Shown: positions 16,528-22,268, numbered from the stretch's first letter. The stretch: DNA of 44,456 nucleotides from Coriobacteriia bacterium (GCA_026416035.1 JAOAFY010000007.1:1-44456), one strand, 5' to 3'. Notes: generated by a model from the sequence alone, not told the origin. Numbers and translations: made by a program.

Positions 16528-16614
16528 GCCGCCGTGCAGAGTTTGTGTGCCGCTCGTCACACTATTGCGACATTCGGCAGAAAGTCCTGGCCTCGGCCTA
16601 CGCGCGTACCGATA
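16528..16614 (+). promoter_or_regulatory. LytTR-like box and conserved upstream block of the 889-residue surface protein
   Basis: The gap 16508-16661 has the block TGTGTGCCGCTCGTCAC (16544-16560), TATT (16563), CGGCAGA (16575) and CCGATA (16609). The same elements recur at identical offsets before the gene at 19541 (19387, 19406, 19418, 19452). GCCGCTCGT (16549-16557) fits 7 of 9 positions of the LytTR half-site consensus as I recall it. A poor second copy (GCCGCCGTG) lies 21 bases upstream. GACGAGCGGC (16520-16529) also pairs with GCCGCTCGTC, so part of this could be a terminator of the UPF0210 gene. Whether the block acts as promoter, operator or leader RNA cannot be settled by eye. Confidence 0.5.
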
Positions 16615-16661: not shown

Positions 16662-19331
16662 ATGATCAGCCCAGCATCGAAGACGCGCACGGGGCGCGGC
16701 GGCGCACGCCGCCGCTTCTCTGCGCTCGCCGCACTGCTGGTAGCAGCCCTGCTGGCGCCCGCCATCCCTGGCGTAGCCTTGGTACGCACCACCATCACCA
16801 TCGACGGCGCGTTCGCAGACTGGGCGCGCGTGTTCGAGGATCCAGCGAACTGCACCTACGACGCCACGGGCGACTGCAGCAGCACCAACGCAGACCTCAC
16901 CGTCGTCGCCGCCACCTACGACGGCTCCTACCTGTACCACTACGTCCGCCGCGCAGCCACAGGCGGCGGCTCGGCCGCACCAGACTACACCGTGTACCTC
17001 GACCTCGACGGCGACGGCCGGCTCCGGAACACCGACATGGCCGTCGTCTACAACCTCACCGGCGGCAACACCTTCTCGTCTGCCGCCCTGTACCGCTACG
17101 TCCCTGCCGATGCGACGAACGGCGATCCGATGCCCGGTGACGCATCTGCGCCTGCCGGATCGCTCGGCGCGCAGGTGCCCGCGTCCATCCAGGGCGCCGG
17201 CGCCCCTGGCGGCGTGGAGCTCGAGACGCGCATCCCCCTAAGCGCCCTTGGCGTGGCAGCCGACGCGCCGATCGGGATGCAGTTCACCTCGAGGCAGGGA
17301 AGCGCGTGGGACAGCGCGGCAGTCGTGGCGCTGCGCCGCTACGGCGTCAGCGTCGAGCCGGACCGCGCCTCGGGCGCCTCGGCTGACACGACGGTCACCT
17401 ACGTGCACACGGTGAAGAACCTCGGCAACACGCCCGCGACGTTCGCGCTGACGGCATCGTCGTCCAAGAAGTGGAGCGTGACGATCGCCTTGGCCGCCAC
17501 CGGAGCGCAGGTCGCTACTGTCACGCTGGCACCCGGCGCCTCGGTCGACATCGCCGTGTCGCTCAAGGTGCCGGCCAACACCCCAGACGGCACGAGGGAC
17601 ACGCTGACCGTGACGGCGACGCACACGACCGTCGCGGGCGTCTCAGGCGCCGCCACCGACATCACCACCGTCGGCCCGGTCCTGGTCATTCCCGACCAGT
17701 ACGGATCGATGGCGCCTGGCCAGACGATCGTCTACCGGAACACGGTCACGAACAACACCGACGAGACCCGCACCATCGCCCTTTCTGCGGACTCGGACAA
17801 GGGTTGGCCCGCCGAGATCCGTGACGCCGCGGGTGCTTCGGTGGTGACCTCGCTGACGCTCGCGCCGCGCGCAAGCGCAGTCGTCTCCGTGCTCGTGCAG
17901 GTCCCAGCGGGCGCTGCGCTCGGCACTGTCAACGTCACCGCAATCCAAGGGCAGGTCGTCGGGGCCCCCAACCTCAAGGGCAAGGGCTACGACACCACCA
18001 CTGCGCGAGGCGCCCTGAGCGTCACGCCCGCCGCCGCTTCCGCTCCTGCAGGCGCAGGCACGTCCGTCTCGTACCGCCACACCGTCGTCAACAGCTGGCC
18101 CACGACGAGGACGGTCTCGCTTTCGGCTGCGTCTTCGCGTGGCTGGACCGTGCAGGTGCTGGCCTCCGATGGCGTCACGCCCATCTCGTCGCTCACCCTC
18201 GGGCCGAACGGTGCCGGCGCGGACGTGGTCGTCCGCGTCCGCGTGCCGGCAGGCGCCGCCTCTGGCACCGTCGATGACACGACGCTCACCTGCACAGCGA
18301 GCCCTCACACGGCGGCCGCCGTCGACCGCACCACCGTGAGTTCGCTCGCCACCTTCGGAGTGGGTGGCTTCGGCTCCCCGCAAGACGCCTTCCAGCTCGG
18401 CGACGTCGTGTACGCACGCGGCATGGGCCTGACGGCTGGCACGCAGGTCCGCTTCCGCTGGGCGGATCCGGCCGGAACGGTCGTGCGGACGTCGAACCTG
18501 ATCAACGCCGACTCCACGGGCATCGCGCAAGACGCCTACACCCTGGGCGCGACCGCTCCTGTGGGGACCTGGACGGTCACGCTCCTTAACAGCACCGGCG
18601 GCATCATCGCGACCGTCCCGTTCTTCGTCGGATACCGGGCGCGGATCTCAGCACTATCCGTGACCGGTGGCGATGCAGTCGAATCCACGCTGACCGTCTC
18701 GACAACGCTCGCCAACCAGGGCGCCGTGACGCTATCGGGCACCACCGTGCGCTGGGTCATCTGGCGCGATGAAGACTCGAACGGGGCGTTCGGAGCAGGC
18801 GACGGCTACCTCGCCCCGGATGGCTCGTGGCAGACCTATGGCAGCGGCCCGGGATACACCCGTGAGACGACCGGCACGACGCTCGGAGCAGGCGCTCAGA
18901 CCACGATCGTGTGGACGGCTGCGACGATGAGCCTGCCCGCCGCAGGCGAGTACCGCGTCAGCGCCACTTGGACCGCAAGCTCAGGCCTTGTCATCGCGCA
19001 GGCCCAGACGGCCTTCTCCGCCGTGCCCGGCGTGCCGTGGCTCGAGCTCACCGTCTCGGAGACCGCAGTCGACTTCGGCAGCGTCGTTCCGGGCGTGCTG
19101 TACGAGCGGCCGAACCTGGGCATCCTCGTCCGGGCGAACGTCGCCTTCGACCTCGTGAAGTCCACCTCGGGAGCAGCGTCGTCGCTCGGGCTGTCGACGG
19201 CGCTCACCGCGCAGCTCGGCCAGCCGAGCGGAGAGCGGACCTACACCGATGCGATCCGCATCGAGGTGCCGTGGGACACCGAGCCCGGCACGTACTCGGC
19301 CGCCGTCATCTACACGGTGATCGCACGATGA
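16662..19331 (+). CDS. Large secreted modular surface protein (CBM9-like, NEW3-like repeats, WxL-like C-terminus)
   Basis: An 889-residue exported protein. Residues 1-40 are a twin-basic signal peptide. Residues 43-230 resemble CBM9/DOMON-type sugar or haem-binding sandwiches (TITIDGAFADW) and include a calcium-loop-like DLDGDGRLRNTD. Three about 105-residue repeats follow (about 228-335, 338-450, 451-560), each with an aromatic-x-x-T-V-x-N strand, a Ser-x-Gly/Lys-W turn and VPAGxxxGT; they resemble NEW3/COG1470 adhesion modules. Residues 560-790 hold two more beta domains with another calcium-like loop (DEDSNGAFGAGD). Residues 793-889 match the 136-residue neighbour at LELTV, VDFGSVVP and W-x-x-E-x-GT...IYTV. 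There is no LPXTG or membrane anchor. ATG 16662 has only a weak AAGAGG ribosome site. Role in attachment or S-layer-like coat is inferred. Confidence 0.8.
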   Translation: MISPASKTRTGRGGARRRFSALAALLVAALLAPAIPGVALVRTTITIDGAFADWARVFEDPANCTYDATGDCSSTNADLTVVAATYDGSYLYHYVRRAATGGGSAAPDYTVYLDLDGDGRLRNTDMAVVYNLTGGNTFSSAALYRYVPADATNGDPMPGDASAPAGSLGAQVPASIQGAGAPGGVELETRIPLSALGVAADAPIGMQFTSRQGSAWDSAAVVALRRYGVSVEPDRASGASADTTVTYVHTVKNLGNTPATFALTASSSKKWSVTIALAATGAQVATVTLAPGASVDIAVSLKVPANTPDGTRDTLTVTATHTTVAGVSGAATDITTVGPVLVIPDQYGSMAPGQTIVYRNTVTNNTDETRTIALSADSDKGWPAEIRDAAGASVVTSLTLAPRASAVVSVLVQVPAGAALGTVNVTAIQGQVVGAPNLKGKGYDTTTARGALSVTPAAASAPAGAGTSVSYRHTVVNSWPTTRTVSLSAASSRGWTVQVLASDGVTPISSLTLGPNGAGADVVVRVRVPAGAASGTVDDTTLTCTASPHTAAAVDRTTVSSLATFGVGGFGSPQDAFQLGDVVYARGMGLTAGTQVRFRWADPAGTVVRTSNLINADSTGIAQDAYTLGATAPVGTWTVTLLNSTGGIIATVPFFVGYRARISALSVTGGDAVESTLTVSTTLANQGAVTLSGTTVRWVIWRDEDSNGAFGAGDGYLAPDGSWQTYGSGPGYTRETTGTTLGAGAQTTIVWTAATMSLPAAGEYRVSATWTASSGLVIAQAQTAFSAVPGVPWLELTVSETAVDFGSVVPGVLYERPNLGILVRANVAFDLVKSTSGAASSLGLSTALTAQLGQPSGERTYTDAIRIEVPWDTEPGTYSAAVIYTVIAR

Positions 19332-19371
19332 GACGCCGCTCCGCACAGGCCTTCCACCTGCCTCGCGATGC

Positions 19372-19457
19372 ACCGCTCATCTGCCCTGTGTGCCGTTTGT
19401 CACGGTATTTCGCCGCGCGGCAGACGAGCGTCAAGCGAGGTGGTGCGTAGGCCGATA
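19372..19457 (+). promoter_or_regulatory. Paired LytTR-like boxes and conserved block before the 136-residue protein
   Basis: ACCGCTCAT (19372-19380) and GCCGTTTGT (19392-19400) each match 8 of 9 positions of the LytTR half-site [TA][AC][CA]GTTN[AG][TG] and are direct repeats separated by 11 bases (12-13 is usual). The second is inside TGTGTGCCGTTTGTCAC (19387-19403), followed by TATT (19406), CGGCAGA (19418) and CCGATA (19452) with the same offsets as before the 889-residue gene. This supports a shared regulator. Confidence 0.55.
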
Positions 19458-19485
19458 CCCGCACCAGGAAGGTCGGACGACCTTC
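19442..19485 (+). promoter_or_regulatory. Two consecutive leader hairpins
   Basis: GGTGCG (19442-19447) pairs with CGCACC (19460-19465), leaving CCGATA in its 12-base loop. Three bases later GAAGGTCG (19468-19475) pairs perfectly with CGACCTTC (19478-19485). Both lie in the likely 5' leader of the 136-residue surface protein. They may stabilise an abundant mRNA or form an RNA switch. I could not match them to a known riboswitch class. Confidence 0.4.
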
Positions 19486-19540
19486 GACGATGGAAGAAAG
19501 CCCGGGCAGGGCGACCGGTTCGAAGAGAAAGGAACCAACC

Positions 19541-19951
19541 ATGAAGAGGACGATCCTGATCGCAGCTGCGGTCGCGGCGCTCGTGTTCGGCGTCGTGGCC
19601 TACGCGAACGCCGCTACCAGCGGCACGGTCACGGTGAGCGCCACCGTGCAGCCCCAGATGGAGATCACCGTCCCGGCGAGCGTGAACCTCGGCAACGTCG
19701 ACCCGTACACGCCGGCCACCGGCACCGTGACGGTCACCGGCAAGTCGAACAAGAACGCGACGCTCTCGGCATCTGTGAACAAGGGCACGTTCACCACGCT
19801 GTCGAGCACTGTCGCTCCGCTGTCGCCCTACAGCTGGGGCAAGGGCGGCAACCTGAGCTACAACGACAGTGTCACCGGCACGGTGGACTGGAGCATCGAC
19901 GCCGGCACCGTCGTGAGCGGTACGATCACCTACACGATCGCGCAGCCGTAA
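19541..19951 (+). CDS. Small secreted WxL-like surface protein
   Basis: A 136-residue exported protein. Residues 1-26 are a signal peptide (KRTILIAAAVAALVFGVVAYANA). The mature part is a single beta-sandwich-like domain rich in Thr, Ser, Val and Asn, beginning SGTVTVSATVQPQMEITV, with VNLGNVDP and ending VDWSIDAGTVVSGTITYTI. These three blocks match the C-terminal domain of the 889-residue neighbour. The W-S-I segment sits where WxL domains carry their second motif. It has no anchor, so it probably binds the wall or assembles on the surface. ATG 19541 has AAAGGAACC upstream. A strong terminator follows, so it can be expressed as a single-gene unit. Confidence 0.8.
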   Translation: MKRTILIAAAVAALVFGVVAYANAATSGTVTVSATVQPQMEITVPASVNLGNVDPYTPATGTVTVTGKSNKNATLSASVNKGTFTTLSSTVAPLSPYSWGKGGNLSYNDSVTGTVDWSIDAGTVVSGTITYTIAQP

Positions 19952-19971
19952 GCAGCGCAGCATAGCATCCC

Positions 19972-20001
19972 AAGAAGCCCCCGCGCATGCGGGGGCTTCT
20001 T
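19972..20001 (+). terminator. Strong intrinsic terminator
   Basis: AAGAAGCCCCCGC (19972-19984) and GCGGGGGCTTCTT (19989-20001) form a perfect 13-bp stem with a four-base loop, 20 bases after the stop of the 136-residue protein gene. The right arm ends in a T-rich stretch. The A-tract of the left arm would also let it work on the minus strand. Confidence 0.9.
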
Positions 20002-20060
20002 CGTCATTGCACCGGATCTTCGTGCTCGAACCGCTCGACGGCAGACCGTGTGCCCGCTCC

Positions 20061-20136
20061 CGAACGGTACCGTTCGTCAGATAAGCGGCTTGTGATGCCG
20101 TTCGTCCCTCATATTCTGCCGCTCAGTGCCGATATA
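20061..20136 (+). promoter_or_regulatory. Palindrome and LytTR-like boxes before the 98-residue protein
   Basis: CGAACGGTACCGTTCG (20061-20076) is a perfect 16-bp palindrome that includes ACCGTTCGT (20069-20077), a 9 of 9 match to the LytTR half-site consensus. GCCGTTCGT (20097-20105, 8 of 9) and GCCGCTCAG (20118-20126, 7 of 9) follow as direct repeats with the canonical 12-base gap. TATT (20112) and CCGATATA (20129) repeat elements found before the other two surface genes, but closer together. Confidence 0.55.
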
Positions 20137-20164
20137 GGTACCAGAAGCAGAGGAGGCGAGAACG

Positions 20165-20461
20165 GTGAAGCGGACGAAGATCGGTGCGGCGGCTCTGGCA
20201 GGGCTCCTGGCGGCGCTGCTGCTCGCGTGCTCTGCATCCGCAGGCACGAGCGGCACCAGCACCGTGACGGCCCGCGTCCGTGCATTCGCTGCCGTGACGC
20301 AGACCGATGCCTCCCACGTGCGCGTGCAAGCCAACACCCCGTGGACGCTCGAGATCGCGACGACCCACGGCGAGACCCTCCGCATCGAGGGCGCGAAGAC
20401 GAGCGGCTACGAAGTCGCCCTCCCCGACGACACCCAGTCGTACTCCCTGGCTTGGGACTAG
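20165..20461 (+). CDS. Small secreted WxL-motif protein
   Basis: A 98-residue exported protein with a signal peptide (residues 1-27; a Cys in LACSASA could alternatively be a lipobox, but the context is weak). The mature 70 residues start SGTSTVTARV, like the 136-residue neighbour, and contain VRVQANTPWTLEI, a good match to the W-x-L motif and its surrounding strand. It is short compared with usual WxL domains and lacks the second motif. It starts at GTG 20165 with AGGAGGCGAG upstream. Its stop overlaps the stop of the convergent DUF916-like gene through the shared tetranucleotide CTAG. Confidence 0.75.
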   Translation: MKRTKIGAAALAGLLAALLLACSASAGTSGTSTVTARVRAFAAVTQTDASHVRVQANTPWTLEIATTHGETLRIEGAKTSGYEVALPDDTQSYSLAWD

Positions 20462-21528
20462 CGCCCTGCTGAGGCGTCCGTCCCGTCGACGTCGTCCCCG
20501 TCCTCCCGCTCGGCCATGCGCACGCGAGCTTCTCTGCGGCGCCCCTCGCGCCGCTCGCGCTCGATCCTGCGAGCGGCCGCCCGCACGCTTGCACGCCACG
20601 AGAGCCACATCGCGATCGCGCCGGCGACCACGATCACGCCGATCGCGAGCCACAACGGGACGACCCACACCGTGCGCTGCTCGGTCAGACGCTCGGGGAT
20701 GTCGGTCTGCGCGCCCTCGCGCGGATACTCGACCTCCAACCGCACGGAGTATCGGCCGAGCATGGTGCCCGCCGGTCGCACAATGCCTGAGTTCTCAGCC
20801 ATCGCGCCCGCGTACACGGTCGTCTCGGTGGCCTCCTGGGTCACGAGCTCGGCACCGCTGGCCGCCTGAAGCGTGACGCGCGCTCGTACGACCTTGTCGA
20901 TGTTGCCCTCGTTGCGGATCGCGTACGAGTACGGGACGCGATCGCCGATGATGAAGGAGCGGACGACGAACGGCTTGATGAGCAGACGCTCGACGATCTC
21001 GCCCTTCACGCGGATGCGGATGCGGGCGGCGAGCCGGCCCGACACCAACGCGTGCGCCTCGTCCGTCGCCACGTCCTTGGGCGGCGCCATCTCGAAGAAC
21101 AGCAGGATCTGGTGGTCCCCAGGCGGCACGCCGTCCGGCACTTGGAAGGTGAAGTCGACCTGCTTGCGCTCGTTCGGCCTAAGCTCGATGTACGGGACGT
21201 TGCCACGCGACTTCATGTCGCTCGACATGGTGACCTGCAGCCACGAGGCCGGGTTGCCGATGCCGCCCACGTCGCCGGGCTTGGGGATCTCGAACGAGAC
21301 CTGGCCCTTCTCGTCGACCACCTGGTTTCCCGCGTAGATGTAGACCTCGATGGGCTCCTTGCTCGGGTTCATCACGATGACCGAGCCCTTGCCGGACTGT
21401 CCCGCAGCCACCTGGAAGTCGAACGACCCCGTGGAAAGCGCGAGCGTCCGCTCGGCCGCCGCCGAGCCAGGCACGAAGAGCGCTGCTGCAAGCGCCACGC
21501 AGGCGAGCAGCGTTGCCCGCCGCCTCAC
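20458..21528 (-). CDS. DUF916-like membrane-anchored partner of WxL proteins
   Basis: A 356-residue protein with a signal peptide (1-25), two extracellular beta domains, one membrane helix near residues 288-312 (VPLWLAIGVIVVAGAIAMWL) and a highly basic cytoplasmic tail. The first domain (FDFQVAAGQSGKGSVIVMNPSKEPIEVYIYA...ASWLQV...YIELRPNERKQVDFTFQVPDGVPPGDHQILL) has the strand order and the VP-x-G pattern of the DUF916 domain that accompanies WxL proteins in Bacillota. The second (about 165-270) resembles the DUF3324 region. The GTG start overlaps the response regulator stop (GTGA), so regulator and anchor are co-transcribed. It probably tethers or presents the three secreted neighbours. Confidence 0.75.
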   Translation of the reverse strand: MRRRATLLACVALAAALFVPGSAAAERTLALSTGSFDFQVAAGQSGKGSVIVMNPSKEPIEVYIYAGNQVVDEKGQVSFEIPKPGDVGGIGNPASWLQVTMSSDMKSRGNVPYIELRPNERKQVDFTFQVPDGVPPGDHQILLFFEMAPPKDVATDEAHALVSGRLAARIRIRVKGEIVERLLIKPFVVRSFIIGDRVPYSYAIRNEGNIDKVVRARVTLQAASGAELVTQEATETTVYAGAMAENSGIVRPAGTMLGRYSVRLEVEYPREGAQTDIPERLTEQRTVWVVPLWLAIGVIVVAGAIAMWLSWRASVRAAARRIERERREGRRREARVRMAEREDGDDVDGTDASAGR

Positions 21529-22268
21529 AAGCCCACCGCCTCTTTGAACTGCCTGACGTGCCGGCGGGCCACTGGGATCTGCGTCTCGTCGCGGTCGGTC
21601 ACCACGATCACGTAGGAGCCGTCCACGCGCAGGATCTCCTTGATGCGCTCGAGGTTGACCATGAAGCTTCGATGCACCCGCTCGAAGCGTTCCTTGCCGA
21701 GCCGCTCCTCGAGCTCGGTGAGCGTGAGATCGACGAGGTACTGGTTCTCGTAGGTGTGCACGTACGTCGACTTGTTCTTCGCAGAGATGTACACGATGTC
21801 GTCGATGCTCAGCAGCACAGTGCGTCCGCCCTTGCGGACCGCGAGCTTGCGGAACTCGCTCTCGCCGTCCCTCACGCGCGCACCCGCGCGCGGCCGGTTG
21901 CGCACCAGGCTTTGCACACGCGCCGAGAGCTCCATCAAGTTGAACGGCTTGGTCACGTACTGCTGGACGCCTTGCTTGAACGCGAGGATCTTTGCCAAGT
22001 CCTGCGTCTTTGCCGTGAGCATGATGACGGGGATGTCGGCGGTCTCGGGATTGTTGCGGATCTCCATGAGCGCCATCCAGCCGTCGACGCGCGGCATCAT
22101 GATGTCGAGCAGGATCACGTCGACCGCTTCTTTGGCGAGCACGTCCAGCGCCTCACCGCCGTCGTTCGCGGACAGCACCCTCATGCCGTCCGCCTCGAGG
22201 CCCATCTTGATCATGTCGACGATGGCCTGATCGTCGTCGACCACGAGCACCGAGATCGGCTCGTCCAT
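21525..22268 (-). CDS. Response regulator, receiver plus LytTR DNA-binding domain
   Basis: A 247-residue transcription factor. The receiver domain spans residues 1-120, with the acidic cluster D11-D13, phospho-acceptor D55 in VILLDIMMP and K107 in VTKPF. After a basic linker, residues 135-247 form a LytTR domain (IDDIVYISAKNKSTYVHTYE...ELEERLGKERFERVHRSFMVNLERIKEI...). LytTR regulators (AgrA, LytR, AlgR) bind paired 9-bp repeats. ATG 22268 has GGAAGGGA upstream. No sensor kinase lies in the window. Boxes fitting the LytTR consensus are found before all three surface genes and in this gene's own leader. Confidence 0.92.
   Translation of the reverse strand: MDEPISVLVVDDDQAIVDMIKMGLEADGMRVLSANDGGEALDVLAKEAVDVILLDIMMPRVDGWMALMEIRNNPETADIPVIMLTAKTQDLAKILAFKQGVQQYVTKPFNLMELSARVQSLVRNRPRAGARVRDGESEFRKLAVRKGGRTVLLSIDDIVYISAKNKSTYVHTYENQYLVDLTLTELEERLGKERFERVHRSFMVNLERIKEILRVDGSYVIVVTDRDETQIPVARRHVRQFKEAVGL

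Follow-up and report, generated by a model that had tools for sequence, protein, structure and literature searches.

Does this locus of an uncultured member of the Coriobacteriia encode a WxL-type surface system, and if so, how are its secreted proteins held at the cell surface and what controls them? WxL systems have been described as belonging almost wholly to Bacilli, and there is no settled view of how they work. The window analyzed here is a stretch of DNA of 44,456 nucleotides (GCA_026416035.1 JAOAFY010000007.1:1-44456) whose host lineage belongs to the Coriobacteriia, in or close to the Anaerosomatales; the nearest named records are Coriobacteriaceae bacterium EMTCatB1 and MAG Tomsk_69_21. 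The five genes of the original prediction, which had been made from the sequence alone, are all present at unchanged coordinates:

16662-19331, + strand: gene of the large secreted protein, 889 aa
19541-19951, + strand: gene of the small secreted protein, 136 aa
20165-20461, + strand: gene of the smallest secreted protein, 98 aa
20458-21528, - strand: gene of the WxLIP (DUF916-type) membrane-anchored protein, 356 aa
21525-22268, - strand: gene of the response regulator, receiver and LytTR domains (Pfam), 247 aa

The three secreted-protein genes converge on the WxLIP and response regulator genes, and at their 3′ ends the 98-aa gene and the WxLIP gene share positions 20458-20461. A 4-bp overlap between the regulator gene and the WxLIP gene (21525-21528) suggests that their translation is coupled. 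Pfam finds Response_reg and LytTR domains in the 247-aa protein, each at E about 1e-26. The gene set lacks an LPXTG protein, as had been predicted.

The 356-aa protein matches PF06030 (WxLIP_PGBD, formerly DUF916) at 30.8 bits, above the Pfam cut-off of 27.3, and 27 of 32 WxLIP relatives match the same family at E 0.1 or better. When profiles of these 32 relatives and of six annotated Bacilli WxLIP proteins were compared by hhalign, they aligned across both domains (95%, E 2e-8, 233 columns). With its 356 residues, hydrophobic N-terminus and C-terminal TM helix, the protein has the expected layout (signal peptide, 320-380 aa). The published WxLIP architecture consists of two Ig-like domains and a C-terminal helix (PMC10599100), and an AlphaFold2 model of the protein (pLDDT 85) reproduces it, with a long helix at the C-terminus:

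Residues about 31-147: first Ig domain of the WxLIP (AlphaFold2 model)
Residues about 165-290: second Ig domain of the WxLIP (AlphaFold2 model)
Within residues 292-344: TM helix of the WxLIP (AlphaFold2 model)

The Pfam match above cut-off, the Bacilli profile match and the predicted fold together confirm that the protein is the DUF916-like membrane anchor first proposed. Pfam HBD (DUF3324, the second domain) has no match in the WxLIP family, though both hhalign and the AlphaFold2 model cover the second Ig domain. The Bacilli-cluster motif NQIDKxxxYFDLK does not occur in the family, which carries ERTxALSTGxFxF instead, with the YFDL-like half alone similar. Because NQIDKxxxYFDLK was described from clusters of human symbionts, we treat it as a sub-family mark that does not exclude WxLIP membership.

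The top Foldseek match of the WxLIP model is the class-5 fimbrial chaperone CfaA (E 5e-10; TM-score 0.64 to the target and 0.41 to the query). The Enterococcus faecium WxLIP structures 9i1y and 9i25 are among the best matches (9i25, with the long WxL bound, E 3e-9), CsuC and PapD are also among the nearest PDB folds, and the model has the two-Ig chaperone fold of the PapD type. Since these TM-scores are moderate (0.41 to the query, 0.51-0.64 to the target), we use the likeness as fold-level evidence; PDB sequence searches with the WxLIP and small-protein families gave nothing significant, with 9i1y and 9i25 at E 0.3 for the WxLIP. The conserved residues include R165 (32/32) and, as K or R in 100% of sequences, R173 and R27. 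A low-confidence loop at residues 149-162 runs into a conserved strand, G164-R165...R169-I-x-I-R173-V-x-G176. In the modeled WxLIP, a pair of chaperone-like Ig domains is followed by a membrane helix.

The secreted partners are composed of the following parts:

889-aa protein: signal peptide, N-terminal region of ~200 aa, NEW3/FixG_C-like Ig domains, MG2-like domain, C-terminal WxLIP-partner domain (Pfam, hhalign)
19029-19328, + strand: C-terminal WxLIP-partner domain of the 889-aa protein, 100 aa
136-aa protein: signal peptide, donor-strand-like N-terminal strand TVTVSATV, Ig-like partner domain

Pfam assigns FixG_C, Ig_VWA7 and NEW3-type Ig domains and an MG2 Ig domain to the 889-aa protein; of the modular giant originally described, the NEW3-type domains stand, whereas the 'CBM9-like' N-terminus has no such Pfam match up to E 1. 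The 136-aa family profile matches the C-terminus of the 889-aa protein (hhalign 99.6%, E 9.5e-25, 99 columns) and, within the host genome, finds two places only, the 136-aa protein and this C-terminus. The 98-aa family matches the 136-aa family in its N-terminal half, signal peptide included (97.2%, E 4.5e-11). The beta-strand patterns that had been noticed among the secreted proteins are therefore common to them beyond chance. Profile comparison places the 136-aa protein and the 889-aa tail in one domain family, with the 98-aa protein as a shorter relative.

Are these partners WxL proteins? By definition, a WxL domain has two WxL motifs and is 160-190 aa long (PMC9772566). The 136- and 889-aa partner domains contain no WxL motif, and the 98-aa family has one, PWTL, in which W60 is invariant and L62 nearly so. 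PF13731 (WxL) matches no tested member of the three partner families, and by hhalign the partner profiles have no direct match to eight real WxL proteins; these two negative results rule out direct WxL membership. The placement of the partner domain is WxL-like, being C-terminal in a large protein whose gene, with those of the small partners, lies beside a WxLIP gene. The WxL-like character first ascribed to the partners thus holds for their position and C-terminal hairpin and fails for the WxL domain itself, by PF13731, by profile and by motifs.

A survey of related genomes had been proposed with the original prediction, and the gene set does co-occur there: 44 of the 99 relatives searched have a WxLIP match, all in one order, compared with 0/30 genomes from other orders of the class at the sensitivity used. 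We read 32 WxLIP loci; every one whose DUF711 border was covered contains small partners, one to three in number, and most contain a large partner too. The LytTR gene is more widely distributed (60/99 relatives). In 18 inspected loci both the WxLIP and the partners are missing; there the LytTR gene directly adjoins the DUF711 gene or the one preceding DUF711, and these loci are a natural empty site. On a tree of the LytTR+GltA locus there are at least eight gains or losses of the cassette, whose genes come and go as a block beside an older LytTR gene. WxLIP distances track those of its neighbors (r about 0.4-0.6), with faster evolution of the WxLIP (median distance 0.62 vs 0.24), a pattern that fits mainly vertical descent with repeated cassette loss. 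Two genomes show isolated peculiarities: one (G037) has a WxLIP fragment sited away from its LytTR locus, and another, cassette-less (G009), has a single weak match to the 136-aa profile (L180:2334-3449, E 9.5e-4) among secreted haem-motif (CxxCH) proteins.

PF06030 loci were also read in scattered families from other orders of Actinomycetota (L165-L179). A secreted-partner gene lies immediately upstream of the PF06030 gene, on the same strand, in 14/14 loci, and all 14 upstream proteins end in L.L.VP....GxYxATLTxT (background 4/98 and 8/785), counts that are descriptive, as the motif was written after viewing the loci. PF13731 is matched by 8/14 of these partners. As judged from such sequence matches, WxL/WxLIP pairs are not confined to Bacilli. 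An intermediate Actinomycetota partner profile matches Bacilli WxL (97%, E 1e-11) and matches the cassette partners over their last 34-38 columns only (67-71%, E 4-5e-5). The link between the cassette partners and WxL is indirect, a weak bridge by way of this intermediate.

These distributions bear on whether the partners are unrelated Ig-like surface proteins that merely adjoin a DUF916-like gene. Such neighbors might be expected, as Ig-like folds are common and the partners fail the WxL profiles, but the cassette genes are gained and lost jointly, one domain family is common to the partners, and the same WxLIP-partner pairing recurs across the phylum. Chance adjacency is extremely improbable, and co-occurrence has largely refuted it. 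The locus is a true four-gene surface-protein cassette, consisting of a WxLIP with small and large secreted partners, and this cassette of uncultured Coriobacteriia is an order-wide variant of the WxL/WxLIP system whose partners form a family as yet unnamed.

We now consider how the partners are held. The model of the 136-aa protein is Ig-like (pLDDT 88). In the PDB, the folds closest to it belong mostly to subunits of donor-strand pili (PapG pilin domain, CfaB, CsuE, FimG), together with the TasA fibre; these Foldseek matches are weak (best E 0.0065, TM 0.46), and generic Ig proteins are mixed in. The mature N-terminus alternates as V-x-V-x-A-x-V. Ala34 is found in 28/28 sequences, and across the family positions 32 and 34 are hydrophobic in 100% and position 36 in 93%, with polar residues in between. 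Residues 21-39 lie outside any strand in the monomer model, and the large proteins have a preceding domain where the small ones have this segment. These are the features expected of a donor or exchange strand. Donor-strand complementation is known for fimbrial chaperones, and on our reading of the chaperone family WxLIP strand 164-176 presumably sits where CfaA/PapD-type chaperones carry their donor strand.

In the mechanism that we prefer, the cassette would make a surface complex with the WxLIP as its base. The secreted partners would bind to the two extracellular Ig domains of the WxLIP, whose strand GRxxxRIxIRVxG (residues 164-176) would complete the partner Ig fold by donor-strand complementation, a role read from the strand's pattern and not from coordinates. 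The WxLIP would hold the partners at the membrane or wall, and the large protein would display its Ig domains outward. Because the small proteins have a free V-x-V-x-A-x-V strand and the WxLIP has a conserved strand after its loop, we consider donor-strand complementation the probable means of holding the partners.

Strand donation would be unneeded if the WxLIP and its partners bound peptidoglycan side by side, as a wall platform that displays the large protein. This is the published model for Bacilli WxL/DUF916 clusters (PMC9772566, PMC10599100), and PF06030 carries the name of a peptidoglycan-binding domain; yet the model's own authors predict, for WxLIP-WxL of Enterococcus, that a WxLIP strand inserts into WxL. 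Mere wall binding also leaves the chaperone-like fold and the conserved unpaired strand unexplained, and we regard it as unlikely. The wall-module idea of the original prediction holds in outline; where it had inferred a complete wall-attachment module, the modeled folds point rather to a chaperone/donor-strand pairing.

Alternatively, the small proteins might polymerize into a fibre by donor-strand exchange through their N-terminal strand, with the large protein as the tip and the WxLIP as a membrane-tethered chaperone or base. The pilus-subunit and TasA folds nearest to the 136-aa model are consistent with a fibre, as are the presence of the alternating strand in small and not in large proteins, the small copies per cassette, which reach three (L058), and the Gram-positive precedent of TasA/TapA (PMC10151520). 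The C-terminal 30-45 aa of the partners also match NCBIfam CPR_Pam_pilin_C weakly (E 0.004-0.013, far under the cut-off), in the window at 19029-19328 and at L035, L037, L045 and L053. However, the fold matches are weak, an usher is not expected in a monoderm, and no fimbrial or fibre family in Pfam, NCBIfam or the PDB sequences gives the partners a match that passes its cut-off. Polymerization is a doubtful prospect on this evidence. It is similarly improbable that monoderm Actinomycetota possess an usher-less, chaperone-pilus-like system, in which a tethered WxLIP would serve subunits polymerizing by donor-strand exchange both as their CfaA-type chaperone and as their base; if true, WxL/WxLIP clusters and chaperone-usher fimbriae would share one assembly principle. 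The fibre and the preferred donor-strand complementation overlap, as a fibre would also use the chaperone-like WxLIP.

What, then, controls the cassette? A signature of CCGYTYGTC, exactly 50 bp and CCGATA precedes all three secreted genes:

16550-16614, + strand: before the 889-aa gene, box CCGCTCGTC and CCGATA with 50 bp between them
19373-19457, + strand: before the 136-aa gene, direct repeat CCGCTCATC/CCGTTTGTC, 20 bp apart, the second box 59 bp from CCGATA
20070-20134, + strand: before the 98-aa gene, CCGTTCGTC boxes, 28 bp apart, the first box 59 bp from CCGATA

A search tolerating one mismatch finds the signature at no other place in the 1.58-Mb genome and not at all in the control. In relatives, a box with CCGATA lies <=200 bp upstream of 21/50 cassette genes vs 3/728 other genes, counts drawn from related, non-independent sequences. 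The boxes are often direct repeats 20-21 bp apart (for example 19373/19393), which we take to fit the known LytTR consensus, and CCGATA resembles a sigma28 -10 element. Rfam found tRNA only in the window, and a known riboswitch as the source of the promoter repeats is thereby ruled out.

Because the boxes lie upstream of the secreted genes, the neighboring LytTR protein is likely their regulator. It would bind CCGYTYRTC boxes and switch on the secreted genes and other surface proteins, with transcription probably from sigma28/WhiG-type promoters (CCGATA). Paired boxes also precede other secreted proteins in relatives, so the LytTR protein most likely runs a wider surface regulon. Paired LytTR-like boxes are found before an M23-peptidase-like secreted gene in three genomes (L136, L138, L139), including a cassette-less one (G005).

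The LytTR gene could instead be a positional neighbor only, the boxes being read by a second LytTR-domain protein of the host genome (G000:C59:24176-24463) or by another regulator. The existence of that protein and the retention of the LytTR gene where the cassette is missing both speak for such an arrangement, against which stand the tight LytTR-WxLIP coupling kept across the order (a 4-bp overlap or near), the fit of the repeats to the consensus and the boxes before other secreted and M23-like genes, as expected of a wider surface regulon; we judge it possible though rather less probable than control by the neighbor. The cassette's 'own LytTR regulator' of the original prediction is an adjoining gene that overlaps the anchor gene by 4 bp; it is not the cassette's own, because it is kept in the 18 cassette-less loci. 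A FliA/WhiG-type sigma (285 bits; L128:12190-12984, G002) is encoded in the genus beside rpsB-tsf and a CheY-like gene, and it may act on the CCGATA promoters. No flagellin was found in four genomes of the genus, so the sigma28-type promoters do not indicate motility.

A WxLIP system occurs widely in one mostly uncultured order of Coriobacteriia, its partner domains are named by no family library, and PF06030-partner pairs extend across Actinomycetota. The chaperone-like fold and the free strand make WxLIP holding and fibre formation directly testable, while the promoter signature, unique in the genome, and the loci that naturally lack the cassette open its regulation and function to testing.

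Within the library searched, we found no description of a WxLIP cassette of such make-up; we compare it to three known systems. The TasA/TapA fibres of Bacillus share the monoderm donor-strand principle and one Foldseek match (8aur), but there is no sequence match and the TasA-type gene context is missing from the locus. Among chaperone-usher pili, of class 5 (CfaA/CfaB) and the archaic type (CsuC/CsuA-B), CfaA is nearest to the WxLIP model in the PDB, the PapG pilin domain and CfaB are weakly nearest to the 136-aa model, and the alternating-hydrophobic N-terminal strand is similar; in contrast, sequence homology was not found, the chaperone-like protein of the cassette is membrane-anchored and an usher is not expected. 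Unlike Bacilli WxL/WxLIP clusters, the cassette has partners without two WxL motifs (a single WxL in the 98-aa protein) and without a PF13731 match, a partner domain of about 100 aa rather than 160-190, no LPXTG protein, and a WxLIP gene that converges with the partner genes and is coupled to LytTR. Like those clusters, it combines a WxLIP of two Ig domains and a C-terminal TM helix with secreted partners both small and large, and in the large one the partner domain comes last; it also shares with them, by way of the Actinomycetota intermediate, a similar form of the C-terminus L.VP....Y.[AT]TLTxT.
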